Of a stretch of 64,000 bases of DNA, positions 142 to 12,731 are shown piece after piece (the stretch's first letter is position 1; the number at the start of each line of letters is the position of its first letter). The notes beneath the pieces are model-generated. The model saw nothing but the letters and a program-made list of their open reading frames with translations. It was not told the origin of the DNA and ran no database searches. This stretch comes from Puia dinghuensis (GTDB taxonomy: Bacteria; Bacteroidota; Bacteroidia; Chitinophagales; Chitinophagaceae), in contig JAMFSL010000073.1 in assembly GCA_026225275.1 (NCBI GenBank), positions 1 to 64,000 of the forward strand. Direction: 5' to 3'. The translations under genes and the position numbers were made by a program.

Positions 142-2160
142 ATGAACAACAAGTACAGGGCGGCGCTGCTGTCCTGTGCGTTGCTTTTTGGCGGCTGGGC
201 CGGGGCGCAGGTTGCGCCAGTTACACAGGTTGCGCCAGCTGCGCCGATGAAAGATTATCCGATACGGCCGGTGCCTTTTACAGCGGTGAAGCTGGATGAC
301 CATTTCTGGTTGCCGCGGATCGAGACCAACCGGGTGGTGACGATTCCTGCGAGTTTTGCCCGCTGTGAGAATACAGGCCGGGTCAAGAATTTCGAGATGG
401 CGGCTGTGCGAAAGGGGAAGTTCTGTACCAAGTATCCTTTTGACGATACGGATATTTATAAGACCATCGAAGGGGCTTCTTATTCGTTGGCCGTGCATCC
501 GGACCGTGTGCTGGCAAAGTATGTCGATTCGCTGATAACGATCGTCGGAAAGGCCCAGGAGCCAGATGGCTATTTATATACAGCGCGCACTATCGACTCG
601 CTGCATCCGCATCCCTGGTCCGGAATGGACCGGTGGGTGAAGGAGAATGAGCTTAGTCATGAATTGTATAACTCCGGGCATTTGTTCGAGGCTGCGAGTG
701 CGCATTATCTGGCGACGGGGGAGAGGCATTTTTTGGATATCGCGCTGAAGAATGCCGATCTGCTGGTGCGGACTTTTGGTCCGGACAAGCGGCATGTCGC
801 GCCGGGGCATGAGATAGTCGAAATGGGGCTGGTGCGGCTGTACCGGATCACGGGTCAAAAGGAATACCTGGACCTTGCCAAATTCTTCATTGACGAGCGG
901 GGGCACAGGGCGTATGATAGGAGTTCAACCGATGAGTGGAAGAATGGGATGTACTGGCAGGACGACGAACCCGTTGTCGACCAGGATGAGGCGGAGGGGC
1001 ATGCCGTGCGGGCTATGTACCTGTATTCCGGAATCGCCGATGTGGCTGCGCTGACGGGTGACACGATATATATCCATGCCATCGACAGGATATGGAATAA
1101 CATGGTCGGCAAGAAAATTTATGTGCAAGGGGGGATCGGTGCGGTTGGTAATGGGGAAAGGTTCGGTGCGGATTATGAACTGCCGAATACGACTGCTTAC
1201 AATGAGACCTGCGCATCGGTAGGAGAGGTTTTCTGGAACCAGCGAATGTTCTTACTACATGGAGATTCGAAGTATATCGATTTGCTGGAAAAGGTGCTGT
1301 ATAATGGATTGATCTCAGGTGTGGGGCTCGATGGGAAGTCCTTTTTTTATACCAATGCTATGCAGGTGGTGAAGGATTCCAGCTATCCGGATCTGGAGAA
1401 GACGAGGTCCGGATGGTTTGAGTGTTCGTGCTGTCCTACCAACATAGCTCGCTTTCTTCCTTCTTTGCCGGGGTATATTTATGCCGGGCAGGGGGACCGG
1501 TTATATGTGAATTTGTTCATTGCGGGGACGGCGGATGTGAAAATAGGAGGCAAGGCGGTGCGGATCACGCAGGTGAATGATTATCCGTGGAAGGGGGATC
1601 TGCATTTTACGGTGGATCCGGTTTCGCCGGTGCGGATGGATTTGCGGTTGAGATTGCCGGGATGGGTGCGGTCAGAGGCGATCCCTTCCGGCCTGTATGA
1701 ATATGTGCCGGGGATCTCCGGAGACGTGGTATTGAAGGTGAATGGAAAGGAAGTGGAATATAAGCAGGAGAAAGGATATGCGGTGATCGGGCGGACGTGG
1801 AAAAAAGGGGACCGGGTAGAACTCACGCTGCCGATGCCTGTCCGGGAAGTTGTCGCCAATGATTCGCTGAAAGATGACCTGGGCAAGGTAGCCCTGCAGC
1901 GAGGGCCGATCATGTATGCGGCGGAGTGGAAGGATAATGTGACTGAGGTGAGTAATATGGTGTTGCCTTCGATGGTGAAGTTATCGCCGGTGTTTGAGCC
2001 AGGATTGCTGCATGGGGTGATGGTGTTGAAGGGGGCGGTAGGGAAAAAAGATGGGGGTTCGGTGGAGATGACTGTAATACCTTATTGTGACTGGGCCAAT
2101 CGGGGAGAGGGGGAAATGAGGCTTTGGTTCCCGGTGGAGGGGGCTGCACATGTGGAGTAA
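142..2160 (+). CDS. GH127-family beta-L-arabinofuranosidase (DUF1680-type), secreted
   Basis: This is a glycoside hydrolase expected to release terminal beta-L-arabinofuranose from arabinose-containing glycans. After a signal peptide (MNNKYRAALL...GAQ) comes the (alpha/alpha)6-barrel region typical of DUF1680 proteins (AVKLDDHFW, ELYNSGHLFEA, GHAVRAMYLY). The family's zinc site is visible as NETC (Glu and Cys) and further on as ECSCC, whose CC pair corresponds to the catalytic and zinc-binding cysteines of the characterised enzyme HypBA1. A beta-sandwich follows at the C-terminus. The ORF track starts at 40 inside the intron. In-frame ATGs at 127, 130 and 142 are the realistic starts, and 142 gives the cleanest signal peptide. 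The next gene overlaps it by 11 bp. Substrate linkage is inferred from the family. Confidence 0.9.
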   Translation: MNNKYRAALLSCALLFGGWAGAQVAPVTQVAPAAPMKDYPIRPVPFTAVKLDDHFWLPRIETNRVVTIPASFARCENTGRVKNFEMAAVRKGKFCTKYPFDDTDIYKTIEGASYSLAVHPDRVLAKYVDSLITIVGKAQEPDGYLYTARTIDSLHPHPWSGMDRWVKENELSHELYNSGHLFEAASAHYLATGERHFLDIALKNADLLVRTFGPDKRHVAPGHEIVEMGLVRLYRITGQKEYLDLAKFFIDERGHRAYDRSSTDEWKNGMYWQDDEPVVDQDEAEGHAVRAMYLYSGIADVAALTGDTIYIHAIDRIWNNMVGKKIYVQGGIGAVGNGERFGADYELPNTTAYNETCASVGEVFWNQRMFLLHGDSKYIDLLEKVLYNGLISGVGLDGKSFFYTNAMQVVKDSSYPDLEKTRSGWFECSCCPTNIARFLPSLPGYIYAGQGDRLYVNLFIAGTADVKIGGKAVRITQVNDYPWKGDLHFTVDPVSPVRMDLRLRLPGWVRSEAIPSGLYEYVPGISGDVVLKVNGKEVEYKQEKGYAVIGRTWKKGDRVELTLPMPVREVVANDSLKDDLGKVALQRGPIMYAAEWKDNVTEVSNMVLPSMVKLSPVFEPGLLHGVMVLKGAVGKKDGGSVEMTVIPYCDWANRGEGEMRLWFPVEGAAHVE

Positions 2161-3703
2161 ACGGCGGACCTGGTTGTTCCGGGGGATAGCCCTGCTTTTA
2201 CCGGTGGTCATGCTGGTGGTGATGGAGATGCTGTTGCAATTATTTGGTTATGGTCATGATACGAGCTTGTTTGTCCGGTATCCGGATAACCGGGATTATT
2301 GGGTGATGAACAAATATGCTTCCGAACGTTATTTTTCCGACACCGTGAACGAGACCCATGGCAGCATCGAGCCTTTTGCGGTGTCGAAGGCGTCCGGCAT
2401 TTTTCGGATTTTTGTGTTAGGGGAGTCGACGACTGCGGGATATCCCTATTTTCATAATGGGTCATTTGATCGATGGCTGAAGTTTCGGTTGATGCACGAG
2501 CATCCTGATGTGCATTTCGAGGTCGTCAATGTTTCGTTGACGGCGGTCAATTCTTATACTGTGCTGGATTTTGGGAAGCAGGTAGTCGACTATCAGCCAG
2601 ATGCCGTTATGGTGTATGTCGGCCACAATGAGTATTATGGGGCGCTGGGTGTGGGGTCGACAAGCCGCATCGGGAACCGGCGGTGGTTGGTGAAGCTGTT
2701 GTTGATGTTGCGTCGATTGCGGTTGGTGCAGTTAATTGGGCGGCTGGTTTCGGGGTTTCGCCCTGGTGGCGGTGTTGGAGTGGATGCGCGGGAGAACTTG
2801 ATGCAGCGGATGGCGGCCCGGCAGCGGATCGGTTATGGGTCGGCGGATTATTATGCCGGGATCCGGCAGTTTCGGGATAATATGGAGGAGCTGTGCAGGG
2901 TGATGAAGGATGCCGGGGTTCCGGTTTTCCTGAGTACGTTGGTGAGTAATGAGCGGGATTGCAAGCCTTTTGTTGGTGGCTCTTCGGTATTTGCCTCAGG
3001 GGATAGTGCTTTTGCTGCGGGAAATTATGTTGCTGCGAGGCGGGACTATGATATGGCCCGGGATTCGGATATGCTGCGGTTTCGGGCGCCTTCGGCGATC
3101 AATGGGGAGATACGGGATCTGGTGGGGAAATTTCCTACGGTGCATTTGGTGGAGGCAGAGCGGCTTTTCGATAGCTGTTCGCCGCATGGGATTGTGGGGA
3201 ATACGACACTGCTGGAGCATGTGCATCCGAATCTTTTCGGATATGCGCTGTTGTCGGAGGCTTTCTATGAGGCCATAGAGAAGGCAGGGTTATTTAAAAG
3301 TAAGGGAGATCGGGGAGAGATAATGAGTTTAGAACAATTGTTGGAAAAGATGCCTATAACGGGTGTCGATTCTCTGAATGGGGAGTATACCATCATGATG
3401 CTGAAGACCAGATGGCCTTTCAATGAGCCGCTGCCTGCGGGATTCAAACGAGGCAATTCCGTAGGGGAGCAATTAGCCGGGGCCCTGGCGGTAGGGCGGA
3501 TCAGTTGGCTGGATGCGATGAATCAGCTGTTTCAATATAGTCAGCGGGTGGGTGATAAAAGAGCAGCTTTGCGGGCGGTAGAAGCTGTTTCGCTGGAATA
3601 TCCTGACAATGAGACTTACAAAATATTTGCGAGCAGGTTGTGCCTTGAGCTGGGCGATCGAAAGGGAGCGGATTTTTATTACCGGCTGACGAAGGAGCCG
3701 TAA
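2150..3703 (+). CDS. SGNH/GDSL-fold hydrolase with N-terminal membrane anchor and C-terminal TPR-like region
   Basis: A 517-residue protein with a transmembrane or signal-anchor helix (about residues 11-31). The SGNH core follows: GESTTAGYP carries the block I serine (about residue 93), GHNEYYG is block III (about 158-164), and EHVHPN (about 355-360) supplies the block V histidine with Glu in the position usually held by Asp. The last 150 residues are helical and TPR-like (AALRAVEAVSLEYPDNETYK). Such proteins are usually esterases or acyl hydrolases acting outside the inner membrane; the substrate is not known here. The ATG overlaps the end of the GH127 gene by 11 bp, so the two are probably translated together, and de-esterification of an arabinose-containing glycan is a reasonable guess. 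Confidence 0.8.
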   Translation: MWSKRRTWLFRGIALLLPVVMLVVMEMLLQLFGYGHDTSLFVRYPDNRDYWVMNKYASERYFSDTVNETHGSIEPFAVSKASGIFRIFVLGESTTAGYPYFHNGSFDRWLKFRLMHEHPDVHFEVVNVSLTAVNSYTVLDFGKQVVDYQPDAVMVYVGHNEYYGALGVGSTSRIGNRRWLVKLLLMLRRLRLVQLIGRLVSGFRPGGGVGVDARENLMQRMAARQRIGYGSADYYAGIRQFRDNMEELCRVMKDAGVPVFLSTLVSNERDCKPFVGGSSVFASGDSAFAAGNYVAARRDYDMARDSDMLRFRAPSAINGEIRDLVGKFPTVHLVEAERLFDSCSPHGIVGNTTLLEHVHPNLFGYALLSEAFYEAIEKAGLFKSKGDRGEIMSLEQLLEKMPITGVDSLNGEYTIMMLKTRWPFNEPLPAGFKRGNSVGEQLAGALAVGRISWLDAMNQLFQYSQRVGDKRAALRAVEAVSLEYPDNETYKIFASRLCLELGDRKGADFYYRLTKEP

Positions 3704-3722: not shown

Positions 3723-5999
3723 TCAGAGCGTCACCTGCATCGTCAGGTAGAAGCTTCTTCCATCTGCGGGGATGATGCCGGGTCCGGGATAACTTTCCGC
3801 ACGGTGGGTATAATACTTTTGATTAGAAAGGTTGTTGATCGATGCCGACAGCAGGAAGATATGGTTGAATTTGTAATCGGCGGAGAGGTCCATCACCTCA
3901 TAAGAAGCTACTGGCCCATTAATACCGTTATTACTGGGTGTCGTGGCATCCGTGGCATCCCCGAACTGTTTTGCCGTGTAGGCGTACTGCCATGTTACGC
4001 TGAGTTTTTTTTGCTGAAAATTGATACCCGTCCTGAAGATGACAGGCGGTACGAATTCCACTTTTTTGTTTTCATACGCCGATACTTTGCTGTCTATATA
4101 CCGGGCATCGATGAAAGAAAAATTGGTGAAGATGGCCAGTTTCATTTTTGCCGCGCTGCCCCGGATCAGCCGCCAGATATCTACCTCTTCAAAAGATTCC
4201 ACGCCCAGGTTGCGGGATTTGGAGATATTCGTCGTGTACTGATAGGTGATCGAATTGCTGTCCGTCAGCCACACCGTGCCGATCCGATCGGCATAGTCGA
4301 TGGTGAAGAGGCTGAGGTCATAATGAAATATGTCGTTGACATGGCCCCGGATGCCGAGATCTGCCGAGTAGCCCTTCTCGTCTTTCAGGTTAGGGTCGAC
4401 ACGGAAATTGGGGTTGACAATGCTCATGTCGTTGAAATTAATCGCGCGGTAATTCTGCGAGATATTGCCGTAGAACTCCATCGATGCATTCTCGTCGTAG
4501 CTGAAACCGATCCCGCCAATGAGAAACGAGCGGTTGCTGAGACGATGTTCGGTTACCAACTGGTTGGAGATGACAGTGCCCGTATACATGCTGGAGAGGT
4601 CCTGCTGGGGGTTATTATAGAAGCCAGCTGCATTGGTCGAGATGTTCTCATACCGGCCACCCGGAATAATGCTGAGTTTGGAACCGATGCGAAAGATATT
4701 TTCCGCGAAGAGGGACAGGTTGTGATTGGGAAAGGTATAACGGGAGTAGCTGAGTGAATCGTATTCGTTGGATTTGTCGAAGGCGAAGTCCGATTTGGCG
4801 CCACCCGATCCTGCATTGCCGAGACCGATCTGTCTGTCCGTATAACCATCGTAGTAACGGAGACCGCCTAGCAGCACGAAGGGGTTGGAGGATCTTGTAT
4901 TATAGGTATAGATGAGACGGCTTTCGTTGCCCCTGTTCTTGTAGGCGTCCGTCGTATAGTTCCTGGGGCCGCCGGGATCGTTGACCGTATTGATGGCGCC
5001 TATGGCGGAGCGATCCGCGAGTAAGCCGAAAAACCTCGAGTTGAATTTAAGGTGATCCGTGATCGAATAGTCGATCAGTAATGCTTCCAGGTTCCAGTCG
5101 ACGCGGAACCAGTTGCGGGCCTTCGTCGATAGTCGAGGGTCTGTGGCGAACATGACATCATTGAGGCCGCCGGCCTGGTGTTCCAGGTAATCCATATGGG
5201 TGTATTCCGCCGTTACTGACAGCCGGGTAGTGGCCGCCAGCGTAGCCGAGAGATAACCCATGTTGACATTGAACTGGGAGTTAGGCCGCCAGCCGAGACC
5301 CGACTTGTGCTGATAAAAGGCGTAATACGTCAGTTTGCCGGTTTTGCCTCCGACGCTCGTTGAGGTGTTGAAAAAATTCCAGGTTCCGCCCGTCAGCCGG
5401 GTAACGATCTGTGGTGTGGTGTTGTCGCCGCCGCTTTTCATTTTAAAATTCAGGATACCGCCGAACTGGGTGCCATATTGAAGAGATGCCGCTCCGCGTA
5501 CAATTTCGATCCTATCCACTACTTCAGCGGGCGGGGTATAATAGCTTTCGGGGTAACCGAGTGCATCGGCACTGATGTCGTAGCCGTTTTGGCGGGTGTT
5601 GAAATTACTTACCCGGTTCGGGTCCAAACCCCTGCCGCCGATGGCGAGCTGCGTGCCTGCTCCGCCGTCATTTTCATAGATATTCAATCCCGCCACTTTC
5701 GAGTAGACCTGCCGGGCATTGTTGGTGGCGGTATTGGCGGTGATATCTTTCAGGACGATGACTTCGCTTTTCATACCGGCATAGATGCCTGCTCCGTCGA
5801 CGTCTTTGAGGCGGGTGATGCCGAAGGTACGTGCTGCGGCCTTTACTTTTACGGAGTCCAAAGTGGAGACACGGGGGATGGAGTCACGAGTCGGTGAGAA
5901 AGGGTGAGGTACGGGCGGTTGTTGTGCGACCGCGATCAGGGATAAGCTGGCGACCAATATGGTGAGGATGAACGATTTCATGAGGTGAGACGATTTCAT
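3723..5999 (-). CDS. TonB-dependent outer-membrane receptor (FecA-like)
   Basis: A TonB-dependent receptor of about 758 residues. It has a signal peptide (MKSFILTILVASLSLIAVAQ), a plug domain with typical motifs (GLNIYENDGGAGTQLAIGGRG, EVVDRIEIVRGAASLQYGTQFGG), a long 22-strand-type barrel and an aromatic-containing C-terminal strand (YLTMQVTL). It lacks the STN and carboxypeptidase-like domains of SusC proteins, so it resembles siderophore or metal receptors. I chose the ATG at 5999 because it overlaps the stop of the upstream HTTM gene as ATGA, a coupling signal. The ORF track starts seven codons earlier and an ATG at 5981 is also possible. It is the last gene of the DUF4856-imelysin-HTTM-receptor unit, which suggests iron or another metal as substrate. 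The ligand cannot be read from sequence. Confidence 0.9.
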   Translation of the reverse strand: MKSSHLMKSFILTILVASLSLIAVAQQPPVPHPFSPTRDSIPRVSTLDSVKVKAAARTFGITRLKDVDGAGIYAGMKSEVIVLKDITANTATNNARQVYSKVAGLNIYENDGGAGTQLAIGGRGLDPNRVSNFNTRQNGYDISADALGYPESYYTPPAEVVDRIEIVRGAASLQYGTQFGGILNFKMKSGGDNTTPQIVTRLTGGTWNFFNTSTSVGGKTGKLTYYAFYQHKSGLGWRPNSQFNVNMGYLSATLAATTRLSVTAEYTHMDYLEHQAGGLNDVMFATDPRLSTKARNWFRVDWNLEALLIDYSITDHLKFNSRFFGLLADRSAIGAINTVNDPGGPRNYTTDAYKNRGNESRLIYTYNTRSSNPFVLLGGLRYYDGYTDRQIGLGNAGSGGAKSDFAFDKSNEYDSLSYSRYTFPNHNLSLFAENIFRIGSKLSIIPGGRYENISTNAAGFYNNPQQDLSSMYTGTVISNQLVTEHRLSNRSFLIGGIGFSYDENASMEFYGNISQNYRAINFNDMSIVNPNFRVDPNLKDEKGYSADLGIRGHVNDIFHYDLSLFTIDYADRIGTVWLTDSNSITYQYTTNISKSRNLGVESFEEVDIWRLIRGSAAKMKLAIFTNFSFIDARYIDSKVSAYENKKVEFVPPVIFRTGINFQQKKLSVTWQYAYTAKQFGDATDATTPSNNGINGPVASYEVMDLSADYKFNHIFLLSASINNLSNQKYYTHRAESYPGPGIIPADGRSFYLTMQVTL

Positions 6000-7297
6000 G
6001 GTTGATAGGGGAGTATCCATTTTTTGGGTAAAAAGTTTTCCTGCTGGCGGGCGAGGTCGACAGTGCTGTCGATATAGAGCCGGCTGCCGCTGCCGTTCAA
6101 CGTGACATAGCTTTCGACGGTGACGATAGGGTCTTTGATGCCTTTGGCATCGTACGTGTCGTGCAGGTAGTGTGCGAACTGGAGGATCATGTCGGGTTGT
6201 GTCTGCATCATCCTTTCCTGCAAGGGCGTCAGGAATTGAGTATTGATCACTTCACCTCTCCGGCCGGTGCGGGCATCTTTGACATAGAAAAAGGCGGTGC
6301 CGGCTTTTTCCATCAGCATGACGCGCCAGGAAAAGCGATACCCTTCTTCCGTCCAGAATAATTTTCCGGGATAGAGGAGGTAACGAAAGGGAAGGGTTAG
6401 CTGCAGGCATATGTAGAGGGCCAGGATCGGGTAGAGCCAGTTCTTTTTTCGGGTTGTGAGACGGAGGGGGATCTGGGTTTCTTCCTTTTGGGGGATGTCG
6501 TCGGCGAAAAATATCACGGTGGCGGCGATCATGATATAGGGGAACATGCCGATCTTGAACAGTAGTCCGGTGAGTACATGAAAGAGAATGACGAAGATGT
6601 AGGCGATCCTTCTCGATGGCTTGTACAGGAGGAAGAAGCCGATCGTCAGATCAAAGAGGGCGCCGAACCAACTGAAGGCGTAGGCCACCCAGGTCTGCTT
6701 TAATAGCGGTCCGATCAGGGGCATGTGGTCGTTGGCGGGCAGCCAGAGTTTTAGTGGCATTGCCGCGAGCAGCCAATCGTAGTTTAGTTTGCTAAGGCCG
6801 GCACAAAAATAGACGAGGCAGAGCTGGGCCTGGAAGACGCGGATCATCCAGGCGGGGACATGGGTGATCTTGCTTTGTGGATGTCTCAGCACGTCCAGCG
6901 AGAAATAGCGATGGGCCGGTACCAGCATCAGCAGGAAGGTGATGAGGGTGACGAAATAATAATGGTTGAGGTAGTAGCTTTTATCCAGTAGTTCGACGTA
7001 GACAAAGCAGATAAAAAAAGTCACGATCGACGCCCTGTAGAAGAGGCCGATCGTGATAAGAATCGTTGTTAGCACCATCAATGCGAAGACGAGATACATG
7101 CCCGTTGCCGGGAGGGGGTGCACCCATTCGAACCCGTAAAAGGGGAAATAGAATTTTGGGACAATATAGAATTCCCGTACCCATCCCTTGGCGATGAAGC
7201 GGATCGTGCTGATGAGCATGATCAGGCCGAAGGCTATGCGAAGGACCGCCAGGGGCGCGATCGGGCGGGGTCTACTAATCTCCATCGTTGTCGCCAT
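5996..7297 (-). CDS. HTTM-domain integral membrane protein
   Basis: A 433-residue polytopic membrane protein with the arrangement of the HTTM (horizontally transferred transmembrane) family, the fold shared with vitamin K-dependent gamma-carboxylase. The first helix starts at PLAVLRIAFGL, and the conserved stretch FWGLSKLNYDW-type is seen here as FCAGLSKLNYDWLL. Several further helices precede a soluble C-terminal region of about 120 residues. No carboxylase activity should be assumed. It overlaps the end of the imelysin gene (23 bp from the first ATG, 11 bp from the second ATG at 7285) and is ATGA-coupled to the receptor downstream. The context therefore makes it the inner-membrane member of a putative metal-uptake unit. 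Confidence 0.83.
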   Translation of the reverse strand: MATTMEISRPRPIAPLAVLRIAFGLIMLISTIRFIAKGWVREFYIVPKFYFPFYGFEWVHPLPATGMYLVFALMVLTTILITIGLFYRASIVTFFICFVYVELLDKSYYLNHYYFVTLITFLLMLVPAHRYFSLDVLRHPQSKITHVPAWMIRVFQAQLCLVYFCAGLSKLNYDWLLAAMPLKLWLPANDHMPLIGPLLKQTWVAYAFSWFGALFDLTIGFFLLYKPSRRIAYIFVILFHVLTGLLFKIGMFPYIMIAATVIFFADDIPQKEETQIPLRLTTRKKNWLYPILALYICLQLTLPFRYLLYPGKLFWTEEGYRFSWRVMLMEKAGTAFFYVKDARTGRRGEVINTQFLTPLQERMMQTQPDMILQFAHYLHDTYDAKGIKDPIVTVESYVTLNGSGSRLYIDSTVDLARQQENFLPKKWILPYQP

Positions 7298-8408
7298 AAG
7301 TAATGAGTACGCCTAAAGCTGAGGGCATATCTGTTTTCAAGAGAGCGACCAGCTTCTGGCTTTCGTTGAAGGCTGCCTGGGCGGAAGCAGGGTTCGACTG
7401 GATCGTCTGAGACAATGGATCAGGCACGGCCTGCAGGTCCGTTACATCAAGGGTGAAGGCTGCCGTGATCGAGTCGCTGAGCAGGCCACCATTGTATTGT
7501 GCTTTTGCATTGACCAGGTAGGTGATCAGTCCCAGGCCGTTACCTTTTACGCTGTTGCCGAGAAAGATACCCTGTACCGCCTTCAATTGAGCGAGGGCCA
7601 ATTGGGCGGAGATTCCGCTATAATACGCTTCCACTTCCTGTGGCAGCACCGGGGAGGTGACGCCAACGGGGATCAGGCCGAGGGGGATGCCCAGGCGATC
7701 GTTCTTTAGGATTTCGAAATCCTGGTCCATCGAATTGATCAATAATCCCAGTGAACTGGAGACACTATTACCCGAGCCGGTGATGAACGTATTGATGTAA
7801 TTGCTGCCGCTGGCCGACCAGGCGGTGAGTACGGCATTCGACTCCGTCTTGATATCGGCTGACACCGCTGCGAGGTAGCTTTTCCGGTTAGCCGCTTCGG
7901 CATCCGACGTATAGTTAGTCAGGGTATTGCCGCCGGCGCCGAACAGGAGATAGTCCAGTGCGGGGAAGCCTTTGGCGGCCGTGTTGGCGAAAGTATTGAC
8001 ATTGTCGCTGTTGATCCGGATGTTGCTGTCGATCAGTGTAGCGTTAGTTGGCCACACGTTGAGGGCGGACAGCACGGGCTGGTTAGTCGAAGCCGGACCG
8101 AAGTAATCATATTCCGAAGCGGATTGCCAGGCGACATAGGCTGTCTTAAAGAGGGCCTGGACATTCCCGAGTTTCGTGGCATTCGGGCTGCTGTTAAAGT
8201 CGCCGATCGAAGAATCCAGGGAATTGACTGCGGTGGCCAGCTGCTGGTAAGACGGCAGGATAATGTTCTCGCCTAAGTTCACCAGGATAGAATCGCTGTT
8301 GCCGGCGGTGGTGGAGTTGCTGCCGGATTTGGAGCTACTCTTACTGCAATTAATGGACAGGATGGTGACTGCGGCGCCCGTGAGAAATAATATTACGATA
8401 CGTTGCAT
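7275..8408 (-). CDS. Imelysin-family lipoprotein (IrpA/EfeO-like)
   Basis: A 377-residue lipoprotein: the lipobox SINC is followed by a Ser-rich linker, then a largely helical imelysin (peptidase M75) domain. Characterised relatives are periplasmic or outer-membrane proteins linked to iron uptake, with a GxHxxE motif. Here the corresponding stretch reads GFPALDYLLFG (about 7938-7970), so the His and Glu are replaced by Pro and Asp. This GxPxxD form suggests altered metal binding, or a scaffold or partner role. It lies 18 bp after the DUF4856 gene and overlaps the HTTM gene. Direct evidence is the fold-typical motifs; function is inferred from the neighbours. Confidence 0.85.
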   Translation of the reverse strand: MQRIVILFLTGAAVTILSINCSKSSSKSGSNSTTAGNSDSILVNLGENIILPSYQQLATAVNSLDSSIGDFNSSPNATKLGNVQALFKTAYVAWQSASEYDYFGPASTNQPVLSALNVWPTNATLIDSNIRINSDNVNTFANTAAKGFPALDYLLFGAGGNTLTNYTSDAEAANRKSYLAAVSADIKTESNAVLTAWSASGSNYINTFITGSGNSVSSSLGLLINSMDQDFEILKNDRLGIPLGLIPVGVTSPVLPQEVEAYYSGISAQLALAQLKAVQGIFLGNSVKGNGLGLITYLVNAKAQYNGGLLSDSITAAFTLDVTDLQAVPDPLSQTIQSNPASAQAAFNESQKLVALLKTDMPSALGVLITYGDNDGD

Positions 8409-8426
8409 ACGTATGGGATTAATAAA

Positions 8427-9566
8427 TTATAGAAGCGGTAATTGTGTTGCCGAGAAGCCGTATATCTGGCCGATCAGCTGAGCGATAGCATTCGTCTTAG
8501 CCTCGATCTGTGCGACCGTGAGACCTGCATTGACACCGACGAAGTTATACAGGTTCGGGCTGTTAGGGCTATTGCTGTCATAGAGCGCCAGCAGCTGGGC
8601 TATCTGCGCACTGGTGATGATCCGGGTTGGGCTATTGTTGTAGGCCAGGTTGCGTACGAAGCCCAGTGATTCCGACAGCGTACCATAGGCGGCAACGGCG
8701 TCACCGGCCTCGATATTTGTATTCGTTTCGTGCATTTCCTGGACGATAGCGCCTGCATCGAGGGAATCGAAAGCGGAGATCAGCAGTGAGGCCTGGGCCT
8801 TCATGGTGGTGAGGTCGTTATTGGCGATAGCGGCGCGGCCTTTGAGGAAGGCATTCATGATGGTCGTATTCGAATTCAAGCCGGCGTTCACCTGGTTAGA
8901 ATAAGAACCGAAATAGCGGAGGCCCGTCGTATTGGTCGGGAAATTGACCGGTACGCCGAAGAGGCCGAAAGCTTCGTCCCAATAGTGTTCGAGGGTAGTG
9001 GTATCCGTCGTGCTGTTGACCGAATCGGCCATATAGACGTCGGCGATCTGGTAGGCGCACATGCCCATGAATGCTTTTTTCGTCGCCTGGCTGTAGAAGA
9101 CGCCATTGGGTGACAGCAGGTAGAGCTTGCTGGGGGTCACGGAGCTCGGAGAGACGCCGGCGACGCCCAATCTTGCCGATTTGGTGGACTGGCTGTAGAG
9201 GCCGACGCTGTCGAAGTAGTTTTCGACATCCGACAGGGCGGCAGTAGGGAACTCATTGACGAGCTTTAGTCCCGAGGAATTCAATTGCAGGGTGGAGTCG
9301 ACGAAAAAGCCGCCGGTGTTGTTCAGCATAGCGTCAAGCGTCTGTGTGCTTACCACCGTGTTGGGTGATGAGTTGGCCAGGTTGATCCTGGCGAGGACCT
9401 GGTCTGCCATGAGGAGGATAGTGAGACTATTATTGTCATTGACATTGGCAAAGGTATAAGTAGTGGGGACGGTATAATTGGTATTTGTTCCGGAGCTCGA
9501 ATTTGATTTTTTGCAACTGCAGCTAAAGAGTATGATGACAAGGGAGGCGAAAACTCTTCTTCTCAT
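8427..9566 (-). CDS. DUF4856-family lipoprotein
   Basis: A 379-residue lipoprotein (signal ending FSCSCKKS) whose N-terminal mature part (VPTTYTFANVN) and helical body match my recollection of DUF4856, a family that accompanies imelysin proteins in Bacteroidota. Motifs such as HYWDEAFGLFG and VQEMHETNTN lie in the body and contain His and Glu residues that could bind metal. It is the first gene of the four-gene minus-strand unit. An 11-bp palindrome (GGTTT-T-AAACC, 9582-9592) sits just upstream and could be an operator. No biochemical function is established; an accessory metal-binding role is inference. Confidence 0.8.
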   Translation of the reverse strand: MRRRVFASLVIILFSCSCKKSNSSSGTNTNYTVPTTYTFANVNDNNSLTILLMADQVLARINLANSSPNTVVSTQTLDAMLNNTGGFFVDSTLQLNSSGLKLVNEFPTAALSDVENYFDSVGLYSQSTKSARLGVAGVSPSSVTPSKLYLLSPNGVFYSQATKKAFMGMCAYQIADVYMADSVNSTTDTTTLEHYWDEAFGLFGVPVNFPTNTTGLRYFGSYSNQVNAGLNSNTTIMNAFLKGRAAIANNDLTTMKAQASLLISAFDSLDAGAIVQEMHETNTNIEAGDAVAAYGTLSESLGFVRNLAYNNSPTRIITSAQIAQLLALYDSNSPNSPNLYNFVGVNAGLTVAQIEAKTNAIAQLIGQIYGFSATQLPLL

Positions 9567-9592: not shown

Positions 9593-9674
9593 GGATGCAA
9601 GATTACGCCCATGCCTTCGCTTACGTCTTACGAGATCGGTAATTCGGTTTGTACAATCGGGAAAAAGGAGAGCG

Positions 9675-10601
9675 TTACTTGCGGCAGATGAGGCGGTAGG
9701 CGCCGGGAGTGAGGCCTTCAGAGCGTTTGAAGGCCCGGACGAAATAATTCACATCGGAGAAGCCGCATTGCTGGCCGACTTCGGAGACCGAGTCGTTTTC
9801 TTCGGCGAGTAACTGGCGGGCGAGGCGGATGCGTTCGCGGGTGATGTATTCCAGCGGGGTGAGGCCGAACTGATGCTTGAACCATTTGAAGAAGATGTTG
9901 CGGCTCAGGTAGGCCTGACGGCTGAGGGTATCGACCTGGATCTTTTCCGTAAGGTGTTCGTGAATGTATTGCAATACGAAGTGGAGGCGACTTTTGTTGT
10001 TGTTGTCTTCGGCATTCTCTTCCAGCAGTCGCAGATGCTGGCTTTGGAGGATACGGATGAGCAGTTCTTTCAGATTGAGATCGGCGTAGATATTCTTGGA
10101 TCTGTCGGTGCTGCTACAGATACGGATCAATTTGTCGATCAGGGCCGTCACGTCCGTATCGTTGTTGAAATGATACTGCGAGAAATGAAGTTGCCAGTCG
10201 GCGGGTTCATCGTCGGCATTATTATAGTGTCCATTCAGATATTCCAGCGTATGGCGGATATAATCGCTGTCTACGGCGAGGGCGATGCATTGGGTAGGGT
10301 TTTCCGCTGCGGCTTCCGGGAAATCGATGAGCATCGTCTCCCGGGCGGGAACGATAACAGACTCGCCCGGCAGGTATTCGAATGCGGGCTGATCGGGGAG
10401 GTGCATGATCTTTTTGCCACGCACCATACTGGTAATGACGAAATCGCCGAAGGTGAGGGGGACGAGGTAGCTGGATTCGTAGCTTTCGAAGACGTTCAGT
10501 TCGCAGTTCTGCAGGTTGAAGATGCGTCGGTTTTCCGTCAGTGTCTGGAGACGCCTGGGGTCTGTGAGGGAAATTTTCTGTAAAGGAGACTTTACGGGCA
10601 T
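9675..10601 (-). CDS. AraC-family transcriptional regulator, divergent from aldehyde dehydrogenase
   Basis: A 308-residue regulator. Residues 1-190 form a cupin-like AraC N-terminal sensing domain (FNLQNCELNVFES, GESVIVPARETMLIDFP). Residues 205-305 hold the two helix-turn-helix units (DTLSRQAYLSRNIFFKWFKHQ and VSEVGQQCGFSDVNYFVRAFK). It is transcribed away from the aldehyde dehydrogenase gene across a 223-bp intergenic region. This layout is typical of a local activator responding to an alcohol or aldehyde. The inducer is not evident. Confidence 0.9.
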   Translation of the reverse strand: MPVKSPLQKISLTDPRRLQTLTENRRIFNLQNCELNVFESYESSYLVPLTFGDFVITSMVRGKKIMHLPDQPAFEYLPGESVIVPARETMLIDFPEAAAENPTQCIALAVDSDYIRHTLEYLNGHYNNADDEPADWQLHFSQYHFNNDTDVTALIDKLIRICSSTDRSKNIYADLNLKELLIRILQSQHLRLLEENAEDNNNKSRLHFVLQYIHEHLTEKIQVDTLSRQAYLSRNIFFKWFKHQFGLTPLEYITRERIRLARQLLAEENDSVSEVGQQCGFSDVNYFVRAFKRSEGLTPGAYRLICRK

Positions 10602-10824
10602 GGCAATCGTATAAGGATAGACAAGTTACTGAATTTTCGGGGAAGCGGATGGAGGGAGAGGGGTTTTCGGGACGGTAGGGGCGCGCAGGAGAAAAGAGAG
10701 GTACGATTGTGCTATAAATAAATACAGAATTGACCGAAGCTGCGGGGTTTGTTTGCCAACTTACGGGCCAGCAGCCGCGGAAGCGGAACCTGACATTATT
10801 ATTAACGACTAAAATGCTTTTGCC
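10602..10824. promoter_or_regulatory. Divergent regulatory region, AraC regulator / aldehyde dehydrogenase
   Basis: This 223-bp intergenic region must contain both promoters. It holds an AT-rich element (CTATAAATAAATAC, about 10710-10725) and a GTTTGTTTG at 10749-10757, but no clean TTTG/TAnnTTTG pair. I see no tRNA, riboswitch or long inverted repeat. A 14-nt match to the 16S rRNA 530-loop core (10767-10780) is judged fortuitous. Confidence 0.5.
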
Positions 10825-12360
10825 ATGAGTACAACCGCAGCGGCGCCCGCCTCTACTTCCAATCTGGCGGCCCGGCCTTCATTCAAGGAAAAATACGATC
10901 ATTTTATTGGTGGTCAATGGGTTGCTCCCGCGAGTGGGGAGTACTTCGACAATATCAGCCCTATTGACGGCAAGGTCTTCACCCGGGCGGCGCGGGGAAA
11001 TGCCAAAGATATCGAGCGGGCCATCGGAGCGGCGCATACCGCCTTTCCCTTGTGGAGCAAAACGAGTGCGGCTTATCGCAGCAACATCCTGCTGAAGATA
11101 GCTCAGGTAGTAGAGGACAACCTGGAAAAACTGGCGGTGATCGAGACCATCGACAATGGGAAAGCCATCCGGGAAACCAGGGCTGCCGATCTTCCGCTGG
11201 TGGTCGATCATTTCCGGTATTTTGCGGGGGTGATCCGCAGTGAAGAAGGGACGATGAGCGAGCATGACGAGACGACCGTTTCTCTTAATATTCACGAGCC
11301 CATTGGGGTAGTGGGGCAGATCATTCCATGGAATTTTCCATTGCTTATGGCGACGTGGAAAATGGCTCCGGCATTGGCGGCAGGATGTTGTGTCGTTGTA
11401 AAACCGGCCGAGCAGACGCCGACGAGTATTATGTGCCTGATGGAACTGATCGGCGATCTTCTTCCGCCGGGCGTGCTGAATGTGGTCACCGGTTTTGGGC
11501 CGGAAGCGGGTAAGCCGCTGGCGTCTTCACCACGGGTGCAGAAGGTGGCATTCACCGGAGAGACGACGACGGGAAGATTGATTATGCAATACGCTTCGGA
11601 GAATTTGATCCCCGTTACTATGGAGCTGGGCGGCAAGAGTCCGAATATCTTCTTCGAATCGGTGATGGATGCCGACGATGAATTCGTGGACAAGGCCGTG
11701 GAGGGTGCAGTGATGTTTGCCCTCAACCAGGGAGAGGTCTGTACCTGTCCCAGCCGGATCCTGGTACATGAAAAGATATATGATGCTTTTATGGACCGCG
11801 TGATCCGCAGGACCAAGGCGATCAAGATGGGCAATCCGCTGGATGCTACGGTGATGATGGGGGCACAGGCTTCCGAGGACCAGTACCATAAGATACTGAG
11901 CTACCTGGATATCGGCCGGCAGGAAGGCGCCAAGGTGCTGTGTGGTGGAGAGGCGTTTCACCAGAACAGCGGGCTGGAACATGGCTATTATATTCAACCG
12001 ACACTTTTCAAAGGCCATAACAAGATGCGGATCTTCCAGGAAGAGATCTTCGGCCCGGTCAGCTGCGTGACGACTTTCAGTTCGACGCAGGAGGCCATAG
12101 ATATTGCTAATGATACACTGTATGGTTTGGGGGCAGGCGTCTGGACACGTGATGCGCACGAGCTCTACCAGGTACCCAGGGCCATTCAGGCCGGACGGGT
12201 ATGGGTGAATTGCTATCATGCTTATCCGGCGCATGCGCCATTCGGCGGGTACAAGAAATCAGGTTTTGGGCGTGAGACACATAAAATGATGTTGAACCAT
12301 TATCGCCAGACCAAGAACATGTTGATCTCCTATAGTAAAACCAAACTGGGCTTTTTCTGA
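10825..12360 (+). CDS. aldB: Aldehyde dehydrogenase, AldB/ExaC type
   Basis: A 511-residue cytoplasmic NAD(P)-dependent aldehyde dehydrogenase that oxidises acetaldehyde or related aldehydes to acids. Visible signatures include PWNFPLLM (cofactor-binding loop), ELGGKSP with the general-base Glu at about residue 267, and [11 protein letters not shown] with the nucleophile Cys at about residue 306. The GEVCTC form rather than GQxC is characteristic of E. coli AldB and Pseudomonas ExaC, and the length fits that group. Its stop overlaps the ATG of the DUF779 gene by one base (TGATG). A divergent AraC regulator probably controls it. Confidence 0.93.
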
Positions 12361-12731
12361 TGAGCATTTCCCGAATCATATCGACCGATAAGGCGGCTGA
12401 GTTGATCGTCAAGCTGGAGGAGATGCATGGCCCACTCATGTTTCATCAGAGCGGAGGATGTTGCGATGGGTCTCAACCCATGTGCTTTTCCGAAGGAGAA
12501 TTCAAGACCGGCAGCAGTGACGTATGTCTGGGCATCGTTAACGGCTGTCGGTTCTATATGGGTAAGGACCAGTTCGAGTATTGGCAGCACACGCAGTTGA
12601 TCCTGGATGTTACGCCGGGGAGGGGGAGTAGTTTTTCACTGGAGATCCCGTTGGGGGTGAGATTTCATATCCGGTCGAGGGTGTTTACTGATGAGGAGTT
12701 GGGGGAGCTGGAGGAGGTGGAGGTAGGATGA
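12360..12731 (+). CDS. DUF779 family protein
   Basis: A 123-residue soluble protein with the DUF779 hallmark HQSGGCCDGSQPMC (about residues 29-42), in which paired cysteines, His and Asp look like a metal or redox site. DUF779 genes are commonly found next to AldB/ExaC-type aldehyde dehydrogenases, and here translation is coupled by a TGATG overlap. A helper role in aldehyde oxidation is inferred from this association; no activity is established. Confidence 0.88.
   Translation: MSISRIISTDKAAELIVKLEEMHGPLMFHQSGGCCDGSQPMCFSEGEFKTGSSDVCLGIVNGCRFYMGKDQFEYWQHTQLILDVTPGRGSSFSLEIPLGVRFHIRSRVFTDEELGELEEVEVG

Follow-up and report, generated by a model that had tools for sequence, protein, structure and literature searches.

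A four-gene unit of Bacteroidota, found here in a window of 64,000 nucleotides (the whole stretch of DNA that was analysed), joins two lipoproteins and a TonB-dependent receptor (TBDR) to a homologue of the vitamin K-dependent gamma-carboxylase (VKGC; GGCX in human). Iron uptake by this unit is well supported, and the intact active-site residues of the VKGC suggest, from sequence, that bacteria may use carboxylation chemistry to build a metal-capturing protein. The reading preferred here, which falls a little short of an even chance, is that the unit serves to acquire iron (metal) and that its VKGC would modify a partner lipoprotein, plausibly at the acidic tail of the imelysin. The identity of the metal, the carboxylase activity, its substrate and the modified residue are the parts of this reading that we infer.

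All four genes lie on the reverse strand. The first (8427-9566, 379 aa) encodes a DUF4856 lipoprotein and the second (7275-8408, 377 aa) an imelysin-family lipoprotein, as seen from the list of open reading frames (ORFs) and Pfam. The third (5996-7297, 433 aa) encodes the VKGC homologue, which has an HTTM domain and a VKGC lumenal domain, and the fourth (3723-5999) encodes a TBDR with plug and barrel. The longest ORF of the TBDR extends to 6020, where a second in-frame ATG is an alternative upstream start. A gap of 18 bp (8409-8426) separates the DUF4856 and imelysin genes, the reading frames of imelysin and VKGC overlap by 23 bp (7275-7297), and the TBDR ATG at 5999 overlaps the VKGC stop codon (5998-5996) as ATGA. 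The original prediction of four genes of the DUF4856, imelysin, HTTM and TBDR families, with this packing, two lipoproteins and a receptor free of an STN domain (only TonB barrel and Plug are matched in Pfam), is borne out by the ORFs, the Pfam matches and the coordinates. The lipobox cysteines are C18 in the DUF4856 protein, kept in 102 of 102 aligned relatives, and C21 in the imelysin, kept in 108 of 108. An SGNH/GDSL-type hydrolase gene (2150-3703, forward strand) is convergent with the operon, and its end is 20 bp away from the stop codon of the TBDR gene. Window positions 9675-12731 hold an AraC regulator gene and, in divergent orientation to it, an aldehyde dehydrogenase gene followed by a small ORF (12360-12731); these look like an unrelated aldehyde-oxidation module.

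The order of the four genes is kept across Bacteroidota. In a prevalence sample of 148 Bacteroidota genomes, 36 have a VKGC lumenal domain, 37 an imelysin and 24 a DUF4856. An imelysin gene adjoins 31 of the 40 VKGC genes. The VKGC-imelysin unit is present in 31 of the 148 genomes, and 29 of these 31 units show the complete order DUF4856-imelysin-VKGC-TBDR; of the other two, one is without a detected DUF4856 gene and the other is truncated where its contig ends. DUF4856 is nearly exclusive to the unit, which is carried by 22 of the 24 genomes with this domain. The same order was seen nearly throughout 80 loci from named genomes, which span Pontibacter, Hymenobacter, Mucilaginibacter, Pedobacter, Chitinophaga, Spirosoma, Fodinibius, Flavobacterium and others; these loci were picked by the similarity of their VKGC to the query alignment and therefore show neighbourhood and not prevalence. 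Across 94 complete operons, the pairwise distances of any one of the four proteins correlate with those of any other at 0.84-0.89, suggesting that the four genes are co-inherited. The neighbourhood survey of DUF4856 with HTTM that had been proposed with the original prediction has found a conserved order, in 29 complete units among 148 genomes and in the 80 loci, and the co-occurrence of the four families is firm. No fifth conserved gene was found in the surveyed units, where no flanking family turns up in more than 13 loci, and the conserved unit in these loci contains no EfeU permease, EfeB-type peroxidase, biosynthetic genes or inner-membrane transporter.

The third protein had been assigned to the HTTM family. 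The HTTM domain is present (PF05090, E 3.4e-85), but the assignment was incomplete, as it missed the lumenal domain that follows (PF22777, E 1.6e-54); the presence of both domains in one protein indicates a whole VKGC homologue and more than an HTTM fold. By phmmer against PDB sequences, the protein matches vitamin K-dependent gamma-carboxylase structures only (human GGCX, E ~3e-46), and 32% of 401 aligned positions are identical between it and human GGCX. The equivalents of GGCX N159, H160, K218, H287 and Q374 in the alignment are N111, H112 (codon 6962-6964, reverse strand), K170 (codon 6788-6790, reverse strand), H240 and Q299, and these residues are invariant in 31 of 31 operon VKGCs and in 9 of 9 stand-alone VKGCs. 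In human GGCX, K218 acts as the catalytic base, and H160 belongs to the active site. The original prediction of a complete outer-to-inner membrane route is not supported, since this protein is an enzyme homologue with GGCX residues and not a known permease, and the conserved unit encodes no inner-membrane transporter. As the sole inner-membrane protein of the unit, the VKGC might still be an inner-membrane permease or an energy-coupling scaffold that completes such a route, but strictly kept GGCX active-site residues would be unexpected in a permease and the VKGC/HTTM family has no known transport function, which makes this role very unlikely.

The invariant residues are those of a quinol enzyme, and they would also suit a menaquinol-dependent redox protein at the periplasmic face, which would take Fe3+ delivered by the lipoproteins, reduce it to Fe2+ for an importer of the FeoB type whose gene lies outside the unit, and modify no protein. 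The iron regulation of relatives would fit such a protein, as would a unit that holds neither a permease nor an obvious invariant Glu substrate. However, GGCX uses the same residues for carboxylation and epoxidation, the VKGC family has no known heme or flavin site, and the invariant DGD C-terminus of the imelysin would be left unexplained; we consider this redox role improbable. The quinone that Bacteroidota usually have is menaquinone (vitamin K2). A vitamin K cycle through VKOR was rejected, because VKOR does not co-occur with VKGC: it is found in only 5 of the 36 VKGC-bearing genomes of the Bacteroidota sample. The family and pattern searches covered the whole genome of the window, and the former gave no match to PF07884 (VKOR), so that the classical epoxide-recycling route is absent there. 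A second type of VKGC, which stands alone and has the same catalytic residues, was observed in loci L071, L076, L078, L079, L086 and L087, with no imelysin nearby in any of the six. It directly follows ribF (FAD synthetase/riboflavin kinase) in the Pfam-scanned loci L071, L076 and L086, and in L078, L079 and L087 the gene before it matches the ribF case in size and position. An imelysin partner is therefore not obligatory for the VKGC family.

The imelysin of the unit (PF09375, E 1.9e-35) has a predicted fold close to that of the iron-regulated IrpA/ICMP imelysins, and its AF2 model (mean pLDDT 87.8) matches the imelysin folds 4ecg (E 4e-10), 7xrx and 3pf0 in Foldseek. The GxHxxE motif is missing from the window protein, which reads GFPALDY with loss of the His, and the operon copies are likewise without this His. 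The window protein ends in D375-G376-D377-COOH (codons 7278-7286, reverse strand). DGD stands immediately before the stop codon in every operon imelysin of the phylum sample, and over both samples 107 of 108 VKGC-adjacent imelysins end exactly in DGD-COOH. The single exception (L157, 1716-2822, ending ...DNPSDSD) comes from a metagenome-assembled genome and has an unusual gap to the VKGC gene; its DSD ending is possibly an assembly or frame effect. None of nine non-partner imelysins, including paralogues in unit-bearing genomes, ends in DGD. An origin of DGD as a by-product of the imelysin/VKGC overlap was rejected, because 67 of the 108 pairs have no overlap of their reading frames (at most 41 do). 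K358, N225 and G244 are among the residues specific to VKGC-associated imelysins in an alignment comparison; this comparison chose DGD-ending imelysins, and its own DGD count, being circular, is excluded as evidence. The last residues of the AF2 model are of low confidence, as expected for a tail that is engaged by another protein, and the modelled tail is probably flexible. Extra copies were seen in two loci: a DGD-ending imelysin upstream of DUF4856 (L108, 3014-4147), and a second imelysin-like ORF (L167, 3027-4133), with ~1.6 kb, between the DGD-imelysin and VKGC genes.

No Glu residue in the aligned partner imelysins is both invariant and specific to VKGC partners, which leaves gamma-carboxylation proper without a clear site in the imelysin. 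Imelysin E260 was rejected as such a residue (present in 96 of 108; other imelysins have Glu or His there), and E299 of the DUF4856 protein, which is near-invariant (101 of 102), was set aside as a VKGC-specific substrate because it could be structural. Asp is a poor substrate of GGCX. The most specific proposal, namely that vitamin K2-dependent carboxylation of the imelysin at its DGD C-terminus, by an iron-regulated VKGC, makes a metal-capture site, is doubtful, if with a real chance of being right. The preferred reading as a whole is weakened by the lack of VKOR, by the presence of Asp and not Glu in the tail, by the stand-alone VKGCs that have no imelysin, and by the window promoter, which has no Fur-like box.

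The DUF4856 domain was matched in Pfam with E 8.5e-23, and the protein also shows a weak match to FEA1-related lipoproteins. Its AF2 model (mean pLDDT 78.6) has no fold relative in the PDB, the best E being 0.25. In the TBDR, the TonB barrel (E 4.3e-30) and the Plug (E 2.6e-9) are above the Pfam cut-offs, and the protein remains below the cut-off of the TonB-dependent siderophore receptors (TIGR01783; 117.6 bits vs 223.5). TBDRs usually import chelates, and siderophore receptors gave the best score of the window TBDR, if one below the cut-off. On these grounds, the VKGC might modify (for example, carboxylate) a small molecule such as a siderophore or another metal chelator, and the DGD tail would then do no more than bind metal or dock to the TBDR or to the DUF4856 protein. 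Yet no biosynthetic genes travel with the unit, the known substrate of the VKGC family is a protein, and DGD tails track the VKGC neighbourhood, so that modification of a small molecule seems unlikely.

A site with no more than two mismatches from ATTTAGN6TCTAAAT precedes the first gene in 79 of 101 operons, where ~2 are expected from shuffles. This box resembles the Riemerella Fur box ATTTAGAATTATTCTAAAT, at which binding has been shown by EMSA at four other promoters (PMC5609570). The genes RAYM_09779-09794 of Riemerella anatipestifer (TBDR, VKGC, imelysin and hypothetical) appear in a table of Fur/iron-regulated genes (PMC5609570). The gene order, the Fur-box-like sites in most relatives and this table uphold the metal-uptake part of the original prediction, whose membrane route is unsupported, as described above. 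Upstream of the window operon, no Fur-like box was found (the best site has five mismatches), and the box is not enriched in the genome of the window over a reversed-pattern control; it was thus rejected as the control site of this operon. Given this lack, it is from the relatives that we infer iron control of the window operon. It is rather improbable that the unit serves copper, zinc, heme or an organic nutrient instead of iron: the imelysin is without the canonical GxHxxE His and the window copy without the box, but Fur-like boxes in 79 of 101 relatives and Fur/iron regulation in Riemerella (PMC5609570) point to iron.

In place of the Fur-like box, the window and most of the Chitinophagaceae-type loci examined have a tandem direct repeat. 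The window copy, TTTCCCGATTGTACAAA and ATTACCGATCTCGTAAG, lies upstream of the first gene (9627-9664, reverse strand) with unit starts 21 bp apart; repeats of the TTTCCCGATNNNGTAAA type have the same spacing in L093, L106, L139, L144 and L150 and a spacing of 22 bp in L125 and L170. A spacing of 21-22 bp suggests a dimeric regulator on one face of the DNA, perhaps of the LytTR type. In a search for a regulon, the consensus doublet had no match in the genome of the window, whose own copy is too degenerate for the pattern. The upstream AraC gene was rejected as the operon regulator, since no close AraC relative lies directly upstream in the surveyed loci; it more likely serves the divergent aldehyde dehydrogenase gene.

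In the preferred reading of VKGC-assisted iron acquisition, the TBDR would bring a metal, or a chelate of it, through the outer membrane. At the outer-membrane or periplasmic face, the DUF4856 and imelysin lipoproteins would capture the metal and pass it on. The VKGC homologue would act in the inner membrane as an enzyme that uses reduced menaquinone, O2 and CO2, deprotonating and carboxylating acidic residues of a partner lipoprotein on the periplasmic side, and this carboxylation would create a stronger metal ligand. We regard such carboxylation as the most economical role for the VKGC. Foremost among the candidate sites is the free C-terminal DGD of the imelysin, where Asp would become beta-carboxy-Asp; alternatively, DGD may be a docking signal for carboxylation elsewhere.

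The component families and the operon in the Riemerella expression table (PMC5609570) were already known. Among the papers searched, there was no mention of DUF4856, no paper joining HTTM with imelysin or a TBDR, and none describing the VKGC unit, its conservation, its intact active site or the DGD tail. What the blood-clotting carboxylase's relatives do in bacteria becomes a question for a single experiment once one of them is placed in a strictly conserved unit that is iron-regulated in relatives, keeps the key residues of the enzyme and has a partner with a nearly unvarying last tripeptide. If the proposal is true, the GGCX family would have a bacterial function, vitamin K2-dependent carboxylation in nutrient uptake, and a post-translational step would be added to outer-membrane metal capture across much of Bacteroidota. 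Beta-carboxyaspartate would possibly serve as a surface metal ligand, and the unit would offer a simple bacterial model for GGCX.

Human GGCX shares the HTTM and lumenal domains and the five aligned key residues with the window VKGC, and is longer (758 aa vs 433 aa). GGCX couples vitamin K epoxidation to Glu carboxylation, an activity that is putative in the window VKGC. Unlike GGCX, the window VKGC has lipoprotein partners with no recognised propeptide or Gla domain. SdpB of B. subtilis, which we take to be an HTTM-family protein, may offer a precedent for HTTM proteins in the maturation of exported proteins. It is needed for processing of the C-terminal part of secreted SdpC (PMC6818787). 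The SdpAB/SdpC system thus matures the C-terminal part of an exported partner, a likeness to the VKGC unit that is drawn from the presumed family; it differs from the unit in partner and purpose. A bacterial carboxylase homologue is also carried by Leptospira (PMC4555120). The Riemerella genes have the order and annotations of the window unit, although their fourth gene is matched by the annotation "hypothetical" only; that operon is known from an expression table, its VKGC has no assigned function, and its type of box is absent from the window. The imelysin/EfeB iron clusters (the P. aeruginosa ICMP operon, Leptospira LruB and EfeUOB) likewise have an imelysin lipoprotein, to whose IrpA/ICMP-like fold that of the window protein is predicted to be similar. 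The VKGC unit differs from them in GFPALDY for GxHxxE, in the DGD tail and in its DUF4856 and VKGC partners, and it includes neither an EfeB-type peroxidase nor EfeU. Iron regulation is common to these clusters and the relatives of the window unit. The TBDR and the two lipoproteins follow a common design for capture at the outer membrane, and the unit represents a form of TonB-dependent, lipoprotein-assisted metal uptake whose chemistry is possibly new.
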